DNA from: Arsukibacterium tuosuense
Lineage (GTDB): Bacteria > Pseudomonadota > Gammaproteobacteria > Steroidobacterales > GCA-2729495
Length of the DNA: 32,075 nucleotides
NCBI GenBank assembly: GCA_945872065.1
Contig: CAMBYH010000024.1
Coordinates: 1-32,075 of the forward strand
Reading direction: 5' to 3'
This document shows positions 2,240 to 31,969 of this stretch, in pieces (position 1 is the stretch's first letter; each line of letters starts with the position of its first letter). The translations under genes were made by a program, and so were the position numbers. The notes beneath the pieces were generated by a model. That model did no database searches, had not been told where the DNA came from, and saw nothing but the letters and a program-made list of their open reading frames with translations.

Positions 2240-3058
2240 ATGGCGATCTATGCCATCGGTGATGTCCAGGGCTGCTGCGACGAGCTGGAAAGCCTCCTCG
2301 CCCGCCTGCGGGTTGATCCGGACCGGGACGAACTCTGGTTCGTCGGTGACCTCGTCAATCGCGGCCCGCGCTCACTCGATACCCTGCGGCTCGTCCGGAA
2401 CCTGGGCAAGCTGGCCACCGTGGTTCTCGGGAATCATGACCTCCACCTGATCGCCCTCGCCTTTGGCAATCGCTCCCGGGCGAAGGTCAGGGAACTGAGT
2501 GATGTGCTGGATGCGCCGGATGGACCGCAACTGGTGGACTGGTTGCGGCACCGGCCGCTGGCCTACTACCGCCCGGAACTGAACACGCTGATGGTCCATG
2601 CGGGCGTCCCACCCCAGTGGGACCCTCTGCTCACCATCAAGCTGGCCCGGGAAGTGGAGCAGGCCCTGCGCGGCAAGCATTGTGCCGAGTACCTCAGGGA
2701 TCTCTACGGCGAAAAGCCGGACCGCTGGTCACCAGATCTGGCAGGCCAGGATCGTCTGCGCTGCATTACCAACAGCCTGACCCGCATGCGGTATTGCAGG
2801 GCAGACGGCACTCTCGATTTTTCGGAGAACGGGCCGCCGGGCTCCCAGGCCAAGGGCCTGCTCCCCTGGTTCGAACTACCGGGCCGGCAGAGCGCCACGG
2901 TGCGCGTCGTCTTCGGCCACTGGGCCTCCCTGGGCCTGGTGCAGCGGGATAATCTGCTGGGCATCGACACCGGCTGCGTGTGGGGCAGGAAGCTCACCGC
3001 CGTGCGCCTCGACGGCCCCGCCAAAACCTTCAGCGTGAAAAAAGGTACCGGACCTTAG
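2240..3058 (+). CDS. apaH: Symmetrical bis(5'-nucleosyl)-tetraphosphatase ApaH
   Basis: ApaH hydrolyses Ap4A symmetrically to two ADP, controlling the alarmone-like dinucleotide pool and Np4-capped RNA. The metallophosphoesterase motifs are in order: GDVQGC near the N-terminus, GDLVNRGP, GNHDLHL, and later MVHAGV and FGHWASLG. The length is 272 residues against about 280 in E. coli. The C-terminus is odd: the last residues KKGTGP and the TAG stop are encoded by the left arm of a 64-bp palindrome that also occurs 28 kb away. The native end of the protein has therefore probably been replaced or extended by the repeat. thyA converges on the other side of the palindrome. Confidence 0.97.
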   Translation: MAIYAIGDVQGCCDELESLLARLRVDPDRDELWFVGDLVNRGPRSLDTLRLVRNLGKLATVVLGNHDLHLIALAFGNRSRAKVRELSDVLDAPDGPQLVDWLRHRPLAYYRPELNTLMVHAGVPPQWDPLLTIKLAREVEQALRGKHCAEYLRDLYGEKPDRWSPDLAGQDRLRCITNSLTRMRYCRADGTLDFSENGPPGSQAKGLLPWFELPGRQSATVRVVFGHWASLGLVQRDNLLGIDTGCVWGRKLTAVRLDGPAKTFSVKKGTGP

Positions 3059-3105
3059 TTTTGTTAGTTATTCGAATAACTAACAAAACTAAGGTCCGGT
3101 ACCTT
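3042..3105. repeat. 64-bp perfect palindrome between convergent apaH and thyA
   Basis: All 32 base pairs match, centred on TTCGAA at 3071-3076. The outer tip is AAGGTACCGGACCTTAG, followed by an AT-rich inner arm. The left arm encodes the last residues and the stop of ApaH, and the right arm ends 4 bp before the thyA stop. As RNA it would form a very long hairpin on either strand, so a bidirectional terminator is plausible, although no strong T-run follows. The same arms, with a different tip, recur at 31125-31198, which marks it as a dispersed element and not a private terminator. Confidence 0.9.
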
Positions 3106-3109
3106 CGCG

Positions 3110-3904
3110 TCACACCGCTACAGCAGCGCGGATGGCGGGGTGGGACTGGTAGCCGGCGACTTCGATGTCGGCGTAGGTGTAGTCGAAGAGACTCGGGGGA
3201 CGGCGCTTCAGCTGCAGCGTCGGCAGTGGCAGCGGCTGGCGACTGAGCTGCTCGTCCGCCTGCTCCAGATGATTGAGATACAGGTGGCAATCGCCGCCAG
3301 TCCAGATGAAGTCGCCGGGCTCCAGATCGCTCTGGGCGGCAACCAGATGGGTGAGCAGCGCATAGGACGCGATGTTGAAGGGCACGCCGAGAAAGATGTC
3401 GGCGCTGCGCTGGTACAGCTGGCAGGACAGCCGCCCGTCCGCCACCCAGAACTGGAACAGCGCGTGGCACGGCGCCAGCGCCATCTTCGGCAGCTCCGCC
3501 ACATTCCAGGCGCTGACGATGATGCGGCGGGAATCCGGGTTGCTGCGGATGAGATCGAGCGCCTGGCGCATCTGGTCGATATGCGCACCGTCCGGCGCCG
3601 GCCAGGAACGCCACTGGGCCCCGTAAACCGGCCCCAGATCGCCATTGCCGTCGGCCCACTCGTCCCAGATGGTGACGCCGTTGTCCCTGAGGTACGCCGT
3701 GTTGGTCTCGCCCCGGAGAAACCAGAGCAGCTCGTGAATGATGGACCGCAGGTGCAGCTTCTTGGTGGTCACCAGCGGAAAGCCGTCGGCCAGGTTGAAG
3801 CGCATCTGGTGGCCGAACACCGACAGCGTGCCGGTCCCCGTGCGATCCGCCTTGCGGGTGCCCTGCTCGCGGACGTGGCGCAACAGGTCGAGGTACTGCC
3901 GCAC
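3110..3904 (-). CDS. thyA: Thymidylate synthase ThyA
   Basis: ThyA methylates dUMP to dTMP using methylenetetrahydrofolate. The GTG start at 3904 is chosen because translation from it gives [11 protein letters not shown] and exactly 264 residues, the E. coli ThyA length. A longer frame further upstream lies inside lgt. Visible motifs include [15 protein letters not shown], the catalytic cysteine in [22 protein letters not shown] and the folate-site region [12 protein letters not shown]. The C-terminus RAAVAV corresponds to the family's conserved APVAI-like end. The start lies 8 bp downstream of the lgt stop, so the two are probably co-transcribed. Confidence 0.97.
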
Positions 3905-4734: not shown

Positions 4735-7269
4735 ATGAACGGACCGGGACAGCCCCTGCCCATTGCGTCGGCGCTGCCGGAACTTGGGGCGGCACTGGCC
4801 GCTGGCCGGCGCGCCCTGCTCCAGGCGCCACCGGGCGCCGGGAAAAGCACGGGCGTGCCCCTCGCACTGCTGGACGCACCCTGGCTCGCGGGCCGCCGCA
4901 TCCTGCTGCTCGAGCCGCGCCGGCTGGCCGCCCGGGCGGTGGCGGCGCGCATGGCCAGCACCCTCGGGGAAGCGGTGGGCGAGACGGTCGGTTACCGGAT
5001 GCGGCTGGAAACCCGGGTGGGCCCCCGCACGCGTATCGAGGTGGTCACCGAGGGCATCCTCACCCGCCAGCTGCAGCGGGACCCGGCACTGGAGGGCGTC
5101 GGGCTGGTCATCTTCGACGAGTTCCACGAGCGCAGCCTGCAGGCCGACACGGGCCTTGCCTTCGTGCTCGATGCGCAGCGCCACCTGACCCCGGACCTGC
5201 GCATTCTGGTGATGTCCGCCACCCTGGAGGTGGCGGCCCTCGCCCAGCTGCTGGAGGACGCACCGGTCATCTCGGCACCAGGCCTGAGCTATCCCGTCGA
5301 AACCCGTTATGCGCAACGGCCCACGACGGACTACCTGGACCGGCAGGCGACAGCCGCGATCCGCCAGGCACTGCGGGACGACGACGGTGACCTGCTGGTT
5401 TTTCTCCCGGGCGCTGGCGAGATCCGGCGGGTCGAGCGCGCGCTCACTGACCTGGGCGACAATGCTGGCGGGACCATCCACGTCCGGCCCCTCTACGGCG
5501 ATCTCGACCGGGAAGCCCAGGACCTCGCCATCCGTCCGGCACCTGCCGGCCAGCGCAAGGTGGTGCTCGCCACGAACATCGCCGAGACCAGCCTCACCAT
5601 CGAGGGCATCCGGGTGGTGATCGATGGAGGACTCGAACGCCGCAATCGCTTCGATCCCCGCAGTGGCATGAGCCGGCTGGAGACGGGGCGCATCTCCCAG
5701 GCCTCCGCAGACCAGCGTCGGGGCCGTGCCGGCCGCCTGGCGCCGGGGATCTGCTACCGGCTGTGGACGGCCGCGGAACAGCGGGCCCTCCTCCCCTACA
5801 CCCCACCGGAGATGAGCACCGCAGACCTGGCCCCCCTCGCACTGGAGCTGGCGGGCTGGGGTGCCCGGGACCCGGGTGCGCTGACCTGGCTGACGCCGCC
5901 GCCCGCTGGCGCACTCGCCCAGTCCCGGGAGCTGCTGCACTCTCTCGGCGCCCTGGACGGGGAAGGGACCATCACGCCCCACGGGCGCAACATGCTGGGA
6001 CTCGCAGCCCACCCGCGTCTGGCCCATCTCCTGCTGGGGGCGAAGGCTGCCGGGGTCGGCGCCACCGCCTGCGCGCTCGCGGCCACGCTGGGGGAGCGGG
6101 ACCTGTTGCGGGGAGGACCCGGGGTCAGACCCGGTGAGCGGGACGCGGATCTCCGCACCCGGCTCGAAGTGCTGGCCCGGGAGCCCGCCGCGGCCAGTCG
6201 CGACGATGTGGACCGGGCCACCCTGCGCCAGATCCACCGGTCGGCAGACGCCTTTGCGCGGCAGCTGGGGCTCAAGGCTGGCACGGAGCGCATCGAGCCC
6301 GAAGAAGTGGGCTGGCTGCTCGCCCTCGCCTGGCCGGATCGCATCGCCCGGGCCCGGGAACCCGGCTCGGGCCGGTACCTGCTCAGCAACGGGCGAGGCG
6401 CGTTCTTCGCCGGGCCCCAGTCGCTGGCCAAAGCGGAGTTTCTGGTCATTCCGGAACTGGAGGGCGGGGAGAAGGAGGCGCGCATCTGGCTGGCGGCGCC
6501 GGTGTCGATGGCGGATCTCGAGGAGCACCTCGCCAGCACGATTATCAACAGCGAGGAAATCCGGTGGGACAGCCGGGAGCAGTGTGTCGCGGCCCGCCGG
6601 CAGCGGCGACTCGGCGCCCTCCTGCTGGCGGATGAGGCGCTCCGGAAGCCCGATGCAGGCGCAGTGCTCATGGCGATGATCACTGGTATCCGGGAGCTGG
6701 GCCTGAACGCGCTGCCCTGGAGCCCGGAGCTGCGGCAGTGGCAGGCCCGTGTGGTGCTGGCGCGGGATACCGACAGCGCCACGCTCTGGCCCGACGTCAG
6801 TGACCCTGCACTGCTGGCAACCCTGGAGACCTGGCTCAGTCCCTTTCTGGATGGCGTGGTGCGGACTGCGCATCTCACCCGCGTCGACCTGGCCAGTGCG
6901 CTCCATGCGCTGCTCACCTGGTCCCAGCAGCATCGTCTGGACGAGCTGGCACCAACGCATCTCACCGTGCCTAGTGGCTCACGCATTCCCATCGACTACC
7001 TGGACGGCGGGGTCCCGAGCCTGTCCGTCCGGTTGCAGGAAGTGTTCGGCCTCACCGCCACACCGCGGGTCGGTGGCGGTCGCGTGCCCCTGCTGCTGAA
7101 GCTGCTGTCCCCGGCCCGGCGGCCGGTGCAGGTCACCCAGGACCTGGCGAGCTTCTGGGACAGCGCCTATCACGAGGTCCGGAAAGAGCTGAAAGGCCGC
7201 TACCCCCGGCACTACTGGCCGGAGGACCCGCATCAGGCGGAACCCACGAAGCGCGTCAAGCCGCGCTAA
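4735..7269 (+). CDS. hrpB: ATP-dependent RNA helicase HrpB (DEAH/DExH family)
   Basis: A large superfamily 2 RNA helicase of 844 residues, close to the usual HrpB length (about 810-850). The ATG at 4735 gives MNGPGQPLP followed by the family's short N-terminus. An open frame reaching further upstream overlaps divergent lgt and is not credible. Motifs in order: Walker A PPGAGKST (about residues 33-40), the DEFH box in IFDEFHER, SATLE, ATNIAETSLTIEG, and QRRGRAGR (motif VI). The HrpB-specific C-terminal end includes RYPRHYWPEDP. The cellular role of HrpB is poorly defined. The gene is intact. Confidence 0.95.
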   Translation: MNGPGQPLPIASALPELGAALAAGRRALLQAPPGAGKSTGVPLALLDAPWLAGRRILLLEPRRLAARAVAARMASTLGEAVGETVGYRMRLETRVGPRTRIEVVTEGILTRQLQRDPALEGVGLVIFDEFHERSLQADTGLAFVLDAQRHLTPDLRILVMSATLEVAALAQLLEDAPVISAPGLSYPVETRYAQRPTTDYLDRQATAAIRQALRDDDGDLLVFLPGAGEIRRVERALTDLGDNAGGTIHVRPLYGDLDREAQDLAIRPAPAGQRKVVLATNIAETSLTIEGIRVVIDGGLERRNRFDPRSGMSRLETGRISQASADQRRGRAGRLAPGICYRLWTAAEQRALLPYTPPEMSTADLAPLALELAGWGARDPGALTWLTPPPAGALAQSRELLHSLGALDGEGTITPHGRNMLGLAAHPRLAHLLLGAKAAGVGATACALAATLGERDLLRGGPGVRPGERDADLRTRLEVLAREPAAASRDDVDRATLRQIHRSADAFARQLGLKAGTERIEPEEVGWLLALAWPDRIARAREPGSGRYLLSNGRGAFFAGPQSLAKAEFLVIPELEGGEKEARIWLAAPVSMADLEEHLASTIINSEEIRWDSREQCVAARRQRRLGALLLADEALRKPDAGAVLMAMITGIRELGLNALPWSPELRQWQARVVLARDTDSATLWPDVSDPALLATLETWLSPFLDGVVRTAHLTRVDLASALHALLTWSQQHRLDELAPTHLTVPSGSRIPIDYLDGGVPSLSVRLQEVFGLTATPRVGGGRVPLLLKLLSPARRPVQVTQDLASFWDSAYHEVRKELKGRYPRHYWPEDPHQAEPTKRVKPR

Positions 7270-7318: not shown

Positions 7319-7531
7319 ATGAACCTTCGCGAACAGGTAGAAGAACTGCTGCCCAACTGGCGTACCTGGTACCCGAACCTGTTCGAGGCGGCCGTGGACC
7401 TGGGCATTCTCCGGGCCCGGGTCTGCGATCCTTCGGAACTCCTGCTGCATCGCCGCCACGAGGGCGTGCGCCAGGCGGCCGCCCAGGCGCACCGGGAAAA
7501 GTGGAACGCAGAAGGCGAACCGGAAGATTAA
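7319..7531 (+). CDS. Small hypothetical protein (70 aa)
   Basis: I do not recognise this protein. It starts 49 bp after hrpB with GGAAGG just before the ATG. It encodes 70 charged residues with no signal peptide or membrane segment. The predicted helical stretch NLFEAAVDLGILRARV is followed by an Arg/His/Glu-rich tail. Its TAA stop overlaps the first base of the 67-bp palindrome and the stop of the convergent GNAT gene. It could be a real orphan gene or an eroded remnant. The clear start and ribosome-binding site favour a gene, but comparison with relatives is needed. Confidence 0.5.
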   Translation: MNLREQVEELLPNWRTWYPNLFEAAVDLGILRARVCDPSELLLHRRHEGVRQAAAQAHREKWNAEGEPED

Positions 7532-8094
7532 GAGGCACCGGGTTTGCAATCTGGCAACTTGGCGGCCAAGTTGCCAGATTGCAAACCCGGTGCCTCTGCC
7601 ATGTAAATCAGCATCCGGATGCCCTCCGCGGCCAGCTCTTCACCGGCACAGTGCATGCCCGCCCTTTCCACGACACGGAGCGAGGCGTGATTCTCCGGCC
7701 GGATCGTCGCGATGAGTCGCGGGAGCCCACAGGTCTCGAAGCCAAAACGCAGCAGGGCCGGCACGAGCTCGGTAGCCAGTCCGTGGCGCCACCACCGGGG
7801 CCGCAGGGCGTAAATGATTTCCGGGTCGGCGCGGCGGCGGGCGGTGACGATGCCGCAGTAACCCGCCATGACCGGATCCCCCTCCACGTACAGCGCTGAC
7901 GCTCCGTAGCCCCGGGTGGCGTAGTCCACCAGCGATTCGGCGATCCACTCGGCGCAGCGCGCCTGGGTGAGCACCATCCCGTCGCCCACGTAACGCATGG
8001 TGCGCCGGTCAACGCAAATAACCTGCAGCGCGGCGGCATCACCTGCGGTGAAGTGCCGCACCTGGAGACGGGGAGTAGTCAGGACGACAGTCAT
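7528..8094 (-). CDS. GNAT family N-acetyltransferase (RimJ/RimL-like)
   Basis: A 188-residue GNAT-fold acetyltransferase that would transfer acetyl from acetyl-CoA to an amine; the substrate is unknown. The ATG at 8094 gives MTVVLTTPRLQVRHF, the typical RimJ/RimL-type opening (LxTxRLxLR). The acetyl-CoA site is RPRWWRHGLATE, and the C-terminal part has NHASLRVVERAGM, the conserved N-x-x-S-x-x-V-x-x-x-x-G pattern. The last 22 residues (EAPGLQSGN...CKPGAS) are encoded entirely by the 67-bp palindrome, so the natural C-terminus is probably near IYMA. It ends by overlapping the stop of the convergent 70-aa gene. Confidence 0.88.
   Translation of the reverse strand: MTVVLTTPRLQVRHFTAGDAAALQVICVDRRTMRYVGDGMVLTQARCAEWIAESLVDYATRGYGASALYVEGDPVMAGYCGIVTARRRADPEIIYALRPRWWRHGLATELVPALLRFGFETCGLPRLIATIRPENHASLRVVERAGMHCAGEELAAEGIRMLIYMAEAPGLQSGNLAAKLPDCKPGAS
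7531..7597. repeat. 67-bp near-perfect palindrome inside the 3' end of the GNAT gene
   Basis: Two 33-base arms pair perfectly around a single unpaired G at 7564. The tip reads AGAGGCACCGGGTTTGC. This matches the tip of the 3042 and 31125 palindromes only in the pattern RAGGYACCGG, while the size, position at a convergent junction and translated state are the same. The whole element is read as the C-terminal tail of the acetyltransferase on minus, and its first base is the last base of the plus-strand stop codon. It could act as a bidirectional terminator. Confidence 0.88.
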
Positions 8095-30579: not shown

Positions 30580-31143
30580 ATGCGCACCCTCTACCCCATG
30601 CTTGCAGCCGTTGTCCTGTTCGCTAGCCTGGCCGGCTGCGCCAGTCAGAACCCGCCCAGGGCCCAGTCCCAGAGCGACCCGGATATCGACCTGGCGGCCT
30701 ACAGCACCTTCGGGTGGCAGTCCGTCACGGGTATCGACGGGAGCAACGAGCCGCTGCGTCTTCTGGACGTGAACATCCGAAAAGCTATCCACGCGGAGCT
30801 CACCCGGCGCGGGTACACCGAAGTGGCGAGTGATCCCGAGCTGCTGATCGCTTACGACACGGAAGCCAAAGACAAGCTCAAGTCCAGTCCGTTCCGGGTG
30901 GGCATTGGCCTTGGGAGCTTTGGCGGCAACGTGGGCGGCTCCGTCAACGTCGGCAGCCCCAGCGTCCAGAGTTACCAGGAGGGGCAGCTGGTGATCCACG
31001 CTGTGGATGCAGCGGCCAACCGGGAAGTCTGGCTGGGCACTCTCACCGGTCGGGTCGACACCACGACGCTCGATGAGGCGACGGTGGCGCGGGCCGTGGC
31101 CCTGGCAATGCAGGATTTCCCCCGAAAAGGTACCGGACCTTAG
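30580..31143 (+). CDS. DUF4136-type lipoprotein
   Basis: A 187-residue lipoprotein. The ATG at 30580 follows GGAGAAGG with good spacing. The lipobox is SLAGC (cysteine about residue 20). The mature part has DPDIDLAAYSTFGWQ, the family's conserved D-x-x-x-Y-x-T-F-x-W start, then IRKAIHAELTRRGYTEV and DPELLIAYDT, and ends with a WxG segment (VWLGTLTGRV) and MQDFP. The function of DUF4136 proteins is not established. The last residues RKGTGP and the TAG stop are encoded by the arm of the 74-bp palindrome, giving the same Lys-Gly-Thr-Gly-Pro end as ApaH 28 kb away. copB converges from the other side. Confidence 0.85.
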   Translation: MRTLYPMLAAVVLFASLAGCASQNPPRAQSQSDPDIDLAAYSTFGWQSVTGIDGSNEPLRLLDVNIRKAIHAELTRRGYTEVASDPELLIAYDTEAKDKLKSSPFRVGIGLGSFGGNVGGSVNVGSPSVQSYQEGQLVIHAVDAAANREVWLGTLTGRVDTTTLDEATVARAVALAMQDFPRKGTGP

Positions 31144-31198
31144 TTTTGTTAGTTGTTGCATCTGCAACAACTAACAAAACTAAGGTCCGGTACCTTTT
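31125..31198. repeat. 74-bp near-perfect palindrome between the DUF4136 gene and copB
   Basis: Two 36-base arms pair perfectly around a central TC (31161-31162). The outer 28 bases of each arm, beginning AAGGTACCGGACC, are identical to the 64-bp palindrome at 3042-3105. The inner part differs (TTGCA and TGCAA in place of TTCGAA) yet still pairs fully. The left arm encodes the end of the DUF4136 protein. The right arm runs into T-rich sequence, so this copy should terminate transcription strongly on plus. Confidence 0.92.
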
Positions 31199-31222
31199 TC
31201 TTAAGGTCCGGTACCTTTTTCT
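31181..31222 (+). repeat. Tandem duplication of the palindrome's outer tip
   Basis: The 21-base unit TAAGGTCCGGTACC plus TTTTTCT occurs twice without a gap, at 31181-31201 and 31202-31222. The second copy is an extra arm tip with no partner on the left side. This looks like slippage or an abortive extra round of the process that built the palindrome. Confidence 0.85.
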
Positions 31223-31243: not shown

Positions 31244-31969
31244 CTAAAACCACACGCGGAGGCCGGCAACGAGGCGCGTGTCCCTCACCGACTCGTTAGC
31301 GTCTTCGGCCAGATCAGCGGTGTCACCAAACTTCCCGCTCCACTCTACGCCCACGTAAGGCGCGAACTCACGACGAATCTCGTAGCGCAGGCGCAGGCCC
31401 ACCTCCAGCTGACTCAGGCCGCTGCCAATGCCGAGGGCCGCCTCGTCCTTGCCAAAGGCCTCGAGCTCGGCCCGGGGCACGAGGATCCACCGGTTGGTGA
31501 GCAGGATCTCGTAGTCGGACTCCAGACGTGTGCCGAATTGCCCCCGCTCGCCACCAAACAGGTCGGCCTCGATGTGTAAGCGGTAGGGCGCGGTCCCCTG
31601 CACGCCGACCAGTCCATAGGTCTGGCCCGGACCCGTGCCGAAGTCCTCCCGCAGACCTGCTACCAGATCCCACCAGGCGGTAACTGGTTTCGACCAGAGC
31701 AACTCGGCGCGGCCGCCCTCCACATCACCCGCGGTCATCTCGCCCTCGGACCGGAACAGCACCCGCCCGGTGTCGTGACCGATCCAGGCAAACACGTTCC
31801 AGGCCAGCGTGTCATCCGATGACGCGTTCTGCCATTCCAGTTCGTCCACCAGCACCATCCACACCAGGGGATCGTCGTTCATATGGGCCTGATGCCCCAT
31901 GTCTTCCGCCCGCACCCCAGGCTGGTACAGGCCCGTCAGCAGCAGCGCCGCTCCCATGAACCTATTCAT
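31244..31969 (-). CDS. copB: Copper resistance protein B (CopB)
   Basis: A 241-residue outer-membrane protein of the CopB/PcoB family, a beta-barrel that binds or exports copper as partner of the multicopper oxidase CopA. A signal peptide ends in GVRA before EDMGHQAHMNDD, a short Met/His-containing segment. Family text includes VDELEWQN, RSEGEMTAGDVEGGRAELLWSKPV, WWDLVAGLREDFG, IEADLFGGERGQFGTRLESDYEILLTNRWIL and APYVGVEW. It ends in phenylalanine (LRVWF), as expected of a barrel. The ATG overlaps the copA stop by 8 bases. It lacks the long Met-rich N-terminal extension of some CopB proteins. Confidence 0.93.
   Translation of the reverse strand: MNRFMGAALLLTGLYQPGVRAEDMGHQAHMNDDPLVWMVLVDELEWQNASSDDTLAWNVFAWIGHDTGRVLFRSEGEMTAGDVEGGRAELLWSKPVTAWWDLVAGLREDFGTGPGQTYGLVGVQGTAPYRLHIEADLFGGERGQFGTRLESDYEILLTNRWILVPRAELEAFGKDEAALGIGSGLSQLEVGLRLRYEIRREFAPYVGVEWSGKFGDTADLAEDANESVRDTRLVAGLRVWF

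Follow-up and report, generated by a model that had tools for sequence, protein, structure and literature searches.

Why do ApaH and a DUF4136 lipoprotein, both encoded in the 32,075-nt stretch of DNA analysed here (the window), end in the same five residues, KGTGP? The window belongs to the 2.71-Mb genome of a freshwater bacterium, denoted G000; the relatives referred to below are G001, G002, G003, G004, G005, G007 and G055.

The shared tail and its source

The apaH gene closes with ...GTG AAA AAA GGT ACC GGA CCT TAG and the lipoprotein gene with ...CGA AAA GGT ACC GGA CCT TAG, and the final 15 bases of both are the outer end of a palindrome that occurs twice in the window (Table 1). The two proteins share the KGTGP tail because the palindrome arm, AAGGTACCGGACCTTAG, supplies their last codons together with the stop, as the original prediction had stated. 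The RNA of copy 1 is calculated to fold with -49.1 kcal/mol (z -13.8). No Rfam family reaches its gathering score in the window.

Table 1. Coordinates of the two palindrome copies, the stops within them and the adjoining genes, in window positions.
Feature	Position	Strand	Remarks
apaH	2240..3058	+	GGT ACC GGA CCT and TAG supplied by the palindrome arm; NCBIfam NF001204, 361.8 bits
Palindromic element, copy 1	3042..3105	.	Two 32-nt arms, exact inverted repeat, without spacer
Copy 1 arms	3042-3073/3074-3105		
apaH TAG stop inside the arm	3056..3058	+	Read from the sequence
Thymidylate synthase gene	3110..3904	-	Convergent; own stop just past the right arm
DUF4136 lipoprotein gene	30580..31143	+	Ends in RKGTGP; stop from the arm; Pfam PF13590, 90 bits
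Palindromic element, copy 2	31125..31198	.	Two exact 36-nt arms, 2-nt spacer
Copy 2 arms	31125-31160/31163-31198		
Lipoprotein gene TAG stop inside the arm	31141..31143	+	Read from the sequence
Extra partial arm	31201..31217	-	Local duplication; missing from the matching site in G007
CopB-like outer membrane protein gene	31244..31969	-	Convergent neighbour of copy 2

The window also holds a second, unrelated palindrome (7531-7597), which is perfect, with 33-nt arms and a 1-nt spacer, and belongs to a separate repeat family, for which G000 has 15 arm matches when up to 3 mismatches are allowed. It is read through by a minus-strand GNAT acetyltransferase gene, whose product owes about 22 C-terminal residues to the palindrome.

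Throughout G000, 17 called genes run into an arm of the KGTGP palindrome, the gene calls resting on the author's own codon score and not on a standard annotator, and 15 of them end in (K/E)GTGP-stop. According to Pfam and NCBIfam, these encode ApaH, the DUF4136 protein, MutS, RecX, HemL, an aldehyde dehydrogenase, a ThiF protein, MarC, three ATPases (of the histidine-kinase, ABC transporter and CbiA/ParA types), a glucosamine-isomerase/phosphogluconolactonase family protein, DUF934 and DUF2779 proteins and an ion-transport domain protein. RecX ends at TAA, since its arm reads TTAA. A broader tally, which took every scored open frame that enters an arm (63 cases), was replaced by these gene calls, as many of its cases were antisense frames of neighbouring genes.

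The search of G000 with RGGNACNGGNCCNTRR, which represents any stretch able to encode GTGP-stop behind a codon with a purine in third position, returned 66 matches, 60 of which are arms. Four of the six non-arm matches carry a stop codon and none of these four is the end of a called gene; consequently, all KGTGP ends found coincide with the repeat, which is the outcome of the first check proposed with the original prediction. An ApaH match was obtained in 34 of 36 genomes; the comparison covered 30 loci, including the window's own and one in G007 that is cut by a contig end. None of the other 28 ApaH proteins with a visible end finishes in KGTGP, and the G002 protein among them takes its tail from that genome's own repeat; the same tail on ApaH proteins without the palindrome, which would have contradicted the original prediction, was thus not encountered among them. 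Element-free ApaH proteins of the genus end in SVPRGKG, SVPRGQA or similar, against SVKKGTGP here, a gain of one residue.

Native tails were compared by eye, MutS and the genes at C28 and C41 having no element-free tail for comparison. Element-free DUF4136 relatives end in DLPARTAAP or similar, against DFPRKGTGP here, at the same length. Where an element-free relative exists, the length change mostly stays within about 4 residues, although the relatives themselves scatter; the ThiF protein is 6 residues longer than one relative and 7 shorter than another. The largest other shifts are found in RecX, which falls about 10 residues short of its G005 counterpart, and in HemL, which gains about 8. 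Since protein length, judged by eye, hardly changes in most genes for which such a relative exists, the insertions look close to neutral, in agreement with the earlier suggestion.

The occurrence of the same four or five residues on 15 called G000 genes is consistent with a tail peptide that is useful to the proteins, for example as a degradation or targeting tag, the repeat thereby spreading a functional C-terminus. The host proteins, however, come from unrelated families, and their element-free relatives carry unrelated tails. More direct evidence on this reading is provided by the reading frame.

Reading frame, frame switch and the stopless family

The original prediction had also held that both window genes entered the repeat in the same frame. 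They did, and so did 16 of the 17 called run-in genes in G000, 13 of 15 in G007 and 10 of 11 in G002, so that 39 of 43 use the first-stop frame of the arm. With orthologues merged and three rows with a gene score below 35 dropped (two in G007 and the HemL row in G002), 24 of 27 unique genes enter exclusively in this frame (binomial p 3e-9 against 1/3), counts that are not fully independent even after merging, because copies shared by G000 and G002 could be old insertions with converted arms. By lineage, the proportions are 19/21 for G000 with G007 and 9/10 for G002. The four called genes entering the arm in another frame (C57 in G000; C62 in G007; C10, a weak 79-aa call, also in G007; C38 in G002, without a Pfam match) indicate that entry in other frames is occasionally tolerated.

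The sister arm of G002, GGTACCGGACACTTAG, has one extra base before the TAG and gives 49 matches in G002 and 2 in G000. Nine of the ten G002 genes that end at the first stop finish in KVPDT-stop and one, at a type-C arm, in EGAGP-stop (one-mismatch type-C matches at G002 C3, C17 and C33 were left out of the counts). ApaH, MutS, RecX and a redoxin end in KGTGP-stop in G000 or G007 and in KVPDT-stop in G002. HemL, among the (K/E)GTGP-stop genes of G000, shows the switch too, ending in KVPDT-stop in G002, in the row below the score filter; in G007 it ends in KVPDLSY-stop, from a later TAG. The gene that runs into the sole sister-type copy of G000 likewise ends in KVPDT-stop. The feature that persists across the sister families is a stop, not a peptide. 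This frame switch, by which some of the same genes carry the product of another frame of the sister arm, largely refutes the interpretation of a useful tail, and we consider a functional tag extremely improbable.

It might also be supposed that the element prefers native stop codons as targets, in which case the target, rather than selection, would determine the frame. Seventeen of the 34 arm-adjacent gene ends in G000 retain a stop ahead of the arm, at a distance of 3 to 28 nt, which is compatible with such a preference. Against it, two families occupy the same genes in different frames, the position of the arm with respect to the native end ranges between about -10 and +8 residues (RecX and HemL, by eye), and the flanks have no common motif beyond the A run (by eye). 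A target preference is thus quite unlikely.

The role of the stop can be examined in a third family, GTRCCGGGTTTGGCTTA, with 51 matches in G001, G003 and G004, in which TTAT mostly takes the place of TTAG. In this stopless family, 21 of 27 arms in G003 have a 3' end as their nearest gene boundary, as do 9/19 and 4/5 arms in the other two genomes. Counting one arm per gene end within 60 nt, the arm is read into at 1 of 26 gene ends for stopless arms versus 43 of 99 for the stop-bearing families (Fisher p 6e-5), and at 0 of 19 in G003 versus 17 of 34 in G000 (p 1e-4); when second arms behind the same gene end are counted, the values are 1/27 and 43/104. Like the frame switch, this result supports the capture of gene ends by the stop of the arm, although it is a natural comparison and not a clean experiment, given the common ancestry of the groups and the other differences between the families. 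Seven third-family gene ends adjoin a TTAG or TTAA arm: four stop before it, which counts against that reading, and three are read into, the latter being the same histidine-kinase-type gene in G001, G003 and G004, with the tail VPGLA-stop.

These data do not favour the earlier proposal that placing the stop inside the element is a landing strategy for a repeat living at 3' ends. The stop is not what places the family at gene ends, because the stopless family lives there too and half of the arm-adjacent gene ends in G000 keep a stop before the arm; moreover, 20 of the 62 G000 arms lie nearest to a gene start. From the sequence comparison, the arm stop appears to widen the tolerated zone into the last codons and is not needed for the gene-end habit.

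The possibility that the arms act as a three-frame stop cassette, built of 8-nt TAGTTGTT modules, was not borne out against dinucleotide shuffles. All frames are stopped within the element in 22 of 40 cases in G000 (shuffle mean 22.4), 23 of 34 in G007 (20.5) and 28 of 34 in G002 (21.3). In the first half alone, such complete stopping is rarer than in shuffles (2, 1 and 0 versus 7.9, 6.5 and 7.1 for G000, G007 and G002, respectively). The arm stops one frame early and the remaining frames mostly later.

Placement of the palindrome and differences between genomes

The core GGTACCGGACCTTAG has 57 exact copies in G000, which group into 35 places, or 36 with one sister-type copy on C41. Head-to-head pairs are common, with A runs before and T runs after. 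At up to one mismatch, the 17-mer GGTACCGGACCTTAGTT gives 56 matches in G000 versus 0 for the reversed control, and it is present at one mismatch in 4 of the 60 genomes searched, namely G000 (56), G007 (43), G002 (4) and G055 (1). In an exact DNA search of genome contigs the named carrier is the MAG Baikal-deep-G145, with 22 stretches. A phage origin was set aside, the 18-mer AGGTACCGGACCTTAGTT having no exact match in IMG/VR.

Contigs of G000 break at palindromes, so that the copy number may be higher than counted and copies at breaks look one-armed. The ends of contigs C8, C57, C65, C89, C102 and C111 fall inside or beside palindromes, and two G007 matches also reach contig ends.

The 62 arms of G000 are dispersed and mostly extragenic, 17 of them overlapping a called gene end. 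The nearest gene boundary is a 3' end for 41, a gene start for 20 and neither for 1. A called gene 3' end lies at -31 to +40 of the arm for 36 of the 62, compared with 3.8% of random oriented points and 13.8% of intergenic points; the copies are therefore not mostly far from gene ends, a distribution that would have spoken against the original prediction. These 36 arms correspond to 34 distinct gene ends at 26 of the 36 places. Two one-armed copies, C21:25013 and C71:2936, end genes on both strands, with (E/K)GTGP-stop on one side and GNN-stop, from the TAA of AACAACTAA, on the other. At C32:18093-18166, a copy lies between divergent genes whose called start codons are both within 8 nt of the arm cores.

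In G000, G007 and G002 together there are 54 two-armed elements, inverted units that form hairpins. A very stable hairpin with an A run before and a T run after would suit a two-way intrinsic terminator that selection for termination retains at gene ends, with the stop as a by-product. Of the 20 two-armed G000 copies, 9 lie between convergent genes, 8 between tandem and 3 between divergent genes, while 6 of the 31 neighbouring gene pairs of the window are convergent. The convergent excess is in favour of termination, and the copies between divergent genes are not. A consensus scan, which counts at most 20 pairs and is ill-suited to long stems, flags only one window copy on one strand. Termination would also leave the frame bias and the RAYT association described below unexplained, and as the primary role of the element it is regarded as doubtful.

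Eleven two-armed sites shared by G000 and G007 were compared over the outer 26 nt. The same change is present in both arms at five (G000 C22:25968, C11:1273, C6:72145, C29:15312 and C6:64786), where the two arms match within each genome although their sequence differs between the genomes; neither arm is changed at four, one arm only is changed at one, and at the last both arms are changed and no longer match in G007. Paired changes of this kind suggest hairpin-templated correction or conversion between copies. The loop is largely kept at some of the five same-change sites, and at C6:64786 it is exactly inverted.

Opposite C47:5289 the G007 site is empty, with GCTACC left between the A and T runs; this can be either a loss or a pre-insertion site. 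For 9 of the 11 G000 sites without a G007 partner, none was found in G007 among the 40 candidates scored per genome, and the C28 site has no match in the 7 relatives among the 40 candidates scored per genome. Short tandem duplications of the arm base, directed outward, occur at window 31201-31217 and at G000 C22:25968, C28:4790, C43:1576 and C67:1172. Those at C6:64786 and C28 seem to lengthen the tail of the host protein (e.g., EGTEGTGP).

The RAYT gene and related systems

On contig C67 of G000, a 293-aa RAYT-like gene (L038, 7022-7903, minus strand) lies between inverted arms at 7028 (plus) and 7992 (minus), and its own last codons are arm sequence. The protein scores 47.9 bits against Pfam Y1_Tnp (cut-off 23) and 64.4 bits against NCBIfam REP_Tyr_transpos, below the model cut-off of 80, and contains an HxH motif, HLH at 60-62. 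A PDB sequence search with it gave no match at E 0.01. A homologue 76% identical lies between arms of the sister family in G002, and one 43% identical lies between arms of the third family in G003. The outer 26 nt contain neither GTAG nor CTAC in any of 108 arms, and the GGGGWSAS motif is absent from all 54 two-armed elements. On these features, the palindrome would be a RAYT-associated repeat of the TIRtron sort, without the GTAG tag of classical REPs.

Arms also stand at the end of G000 contig C65 and the start of C57. Between the same two genes, G001, G003 and G004 carry a different RAYT-like gene, which has its own repeat family.

Copies of the palindrome are dispersed and often stand at gene 3' ends, where many, though fewer than half, have taken the place of the last codons, so that the gene terminates at the first stop of the arm. 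In all likelihood, the palindrome is a putative miniature mobile element of the REP/TIR kind, and a copy that intrudes into a gene is retained when the first stop of its arm falls in frame. It would belong to the RAYT, a Y1 transposase, encoded elsewhere in the genome between inverted arms. Copies would land, or be copied by RAYT action, near gene ends regardless of frame. Judging from the frequencies, selection would then remove those that make the ribosome read on through the arm, and copies with an in-frame stop would survive, the alteration being confined to a few variable residues. With A and T runs on either side, the hairpin may double as a two-way transcription terminator. A stronger version would have the stop, whose end lies at a constant depth of 15-16 nt within the outer arm core, as an adaptation of the element. 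It would make insertion into last codons harmless; once the native stop is lost, the gene would depend on the element, which would protect the copy from deletion and keep sites occupied across species while the arms change. We regard this version as rather unlikely.

Stop supply has a precedent. In the sections drawn on here of the 2013 paper on GTAG and CGTC repeats (PMC3733652), REPs lie close to 3' ends, their termini often give flanking ORFs their TAG stop, and overlap of a repeat with the 3' end of a RAYT is a category in the figure legends. The same sections describe TIRtrons, or TIRYTs, as RAYT-like genes with long flanking inverted repeats without GTAG, which also form a repeat family of singles and dimers. 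REPINs were defined, and compensatory changes noted, by Bertels and Rainey in 2011 (PMC3116915). Like REPs and REPINs as presented in these two sources, in the parts consulted, the KGTGP element is an inverted doublet forming a long hairpin, is dispersed between genes, has a matching RAYT flanked by the same sequence and shows compensatory changes in both halves. Unlike them, it has no GTAG in the outer 26 nt of its arms, occurs at 36 places in G000 and, its stop ending 15 nt into the arm core, adds coding residues ahead of that stop; the sister-family frame switch and the stopless comparison family also set it apart from the REPs and REPINs of those parts. With TIRtrons, as far as the sections drawn on go, it shares a RAYT-like gene whose long flanking inverted repeats without GTAG are the repeat family, in G002 and G003 as well; it differs in lacking GGGGWSAS and in that the overlapping arm supplies the end of the RAYT gene itself.

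Rickettsial palindromic elements are palindromic repeats that lie in frame within host proteins and are translated with them. The KGTGP element resembles them in being translated in host proteins, as the palindrome at 7531-7597 is in the GNAT gene, and differs in terminating proteins and not lying inside them. Their presence inside proteins is named in PMC3733652, in the part drawn on. Among the matches listed, no other paper addressed repeat-supplied stops by its title or the start of its abstract, and neither the frame switch nor the stopless comparison was found in print. Taken with the sections of PMC3733652 used here, the supply of stops by repeats of the RAYT class is already known, and the present element is a new, unusually clear case.

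The palindrome and its relatives provide a natural test, of unusual clarity, of the way in which a mobile repeat settles against genes: in two species, sister repeats end some of the same genes in different frames, and a related family lacking the stop is almost never read into. For annotation, the warning is that a C-terminal peptide can recur without being a functional tag.
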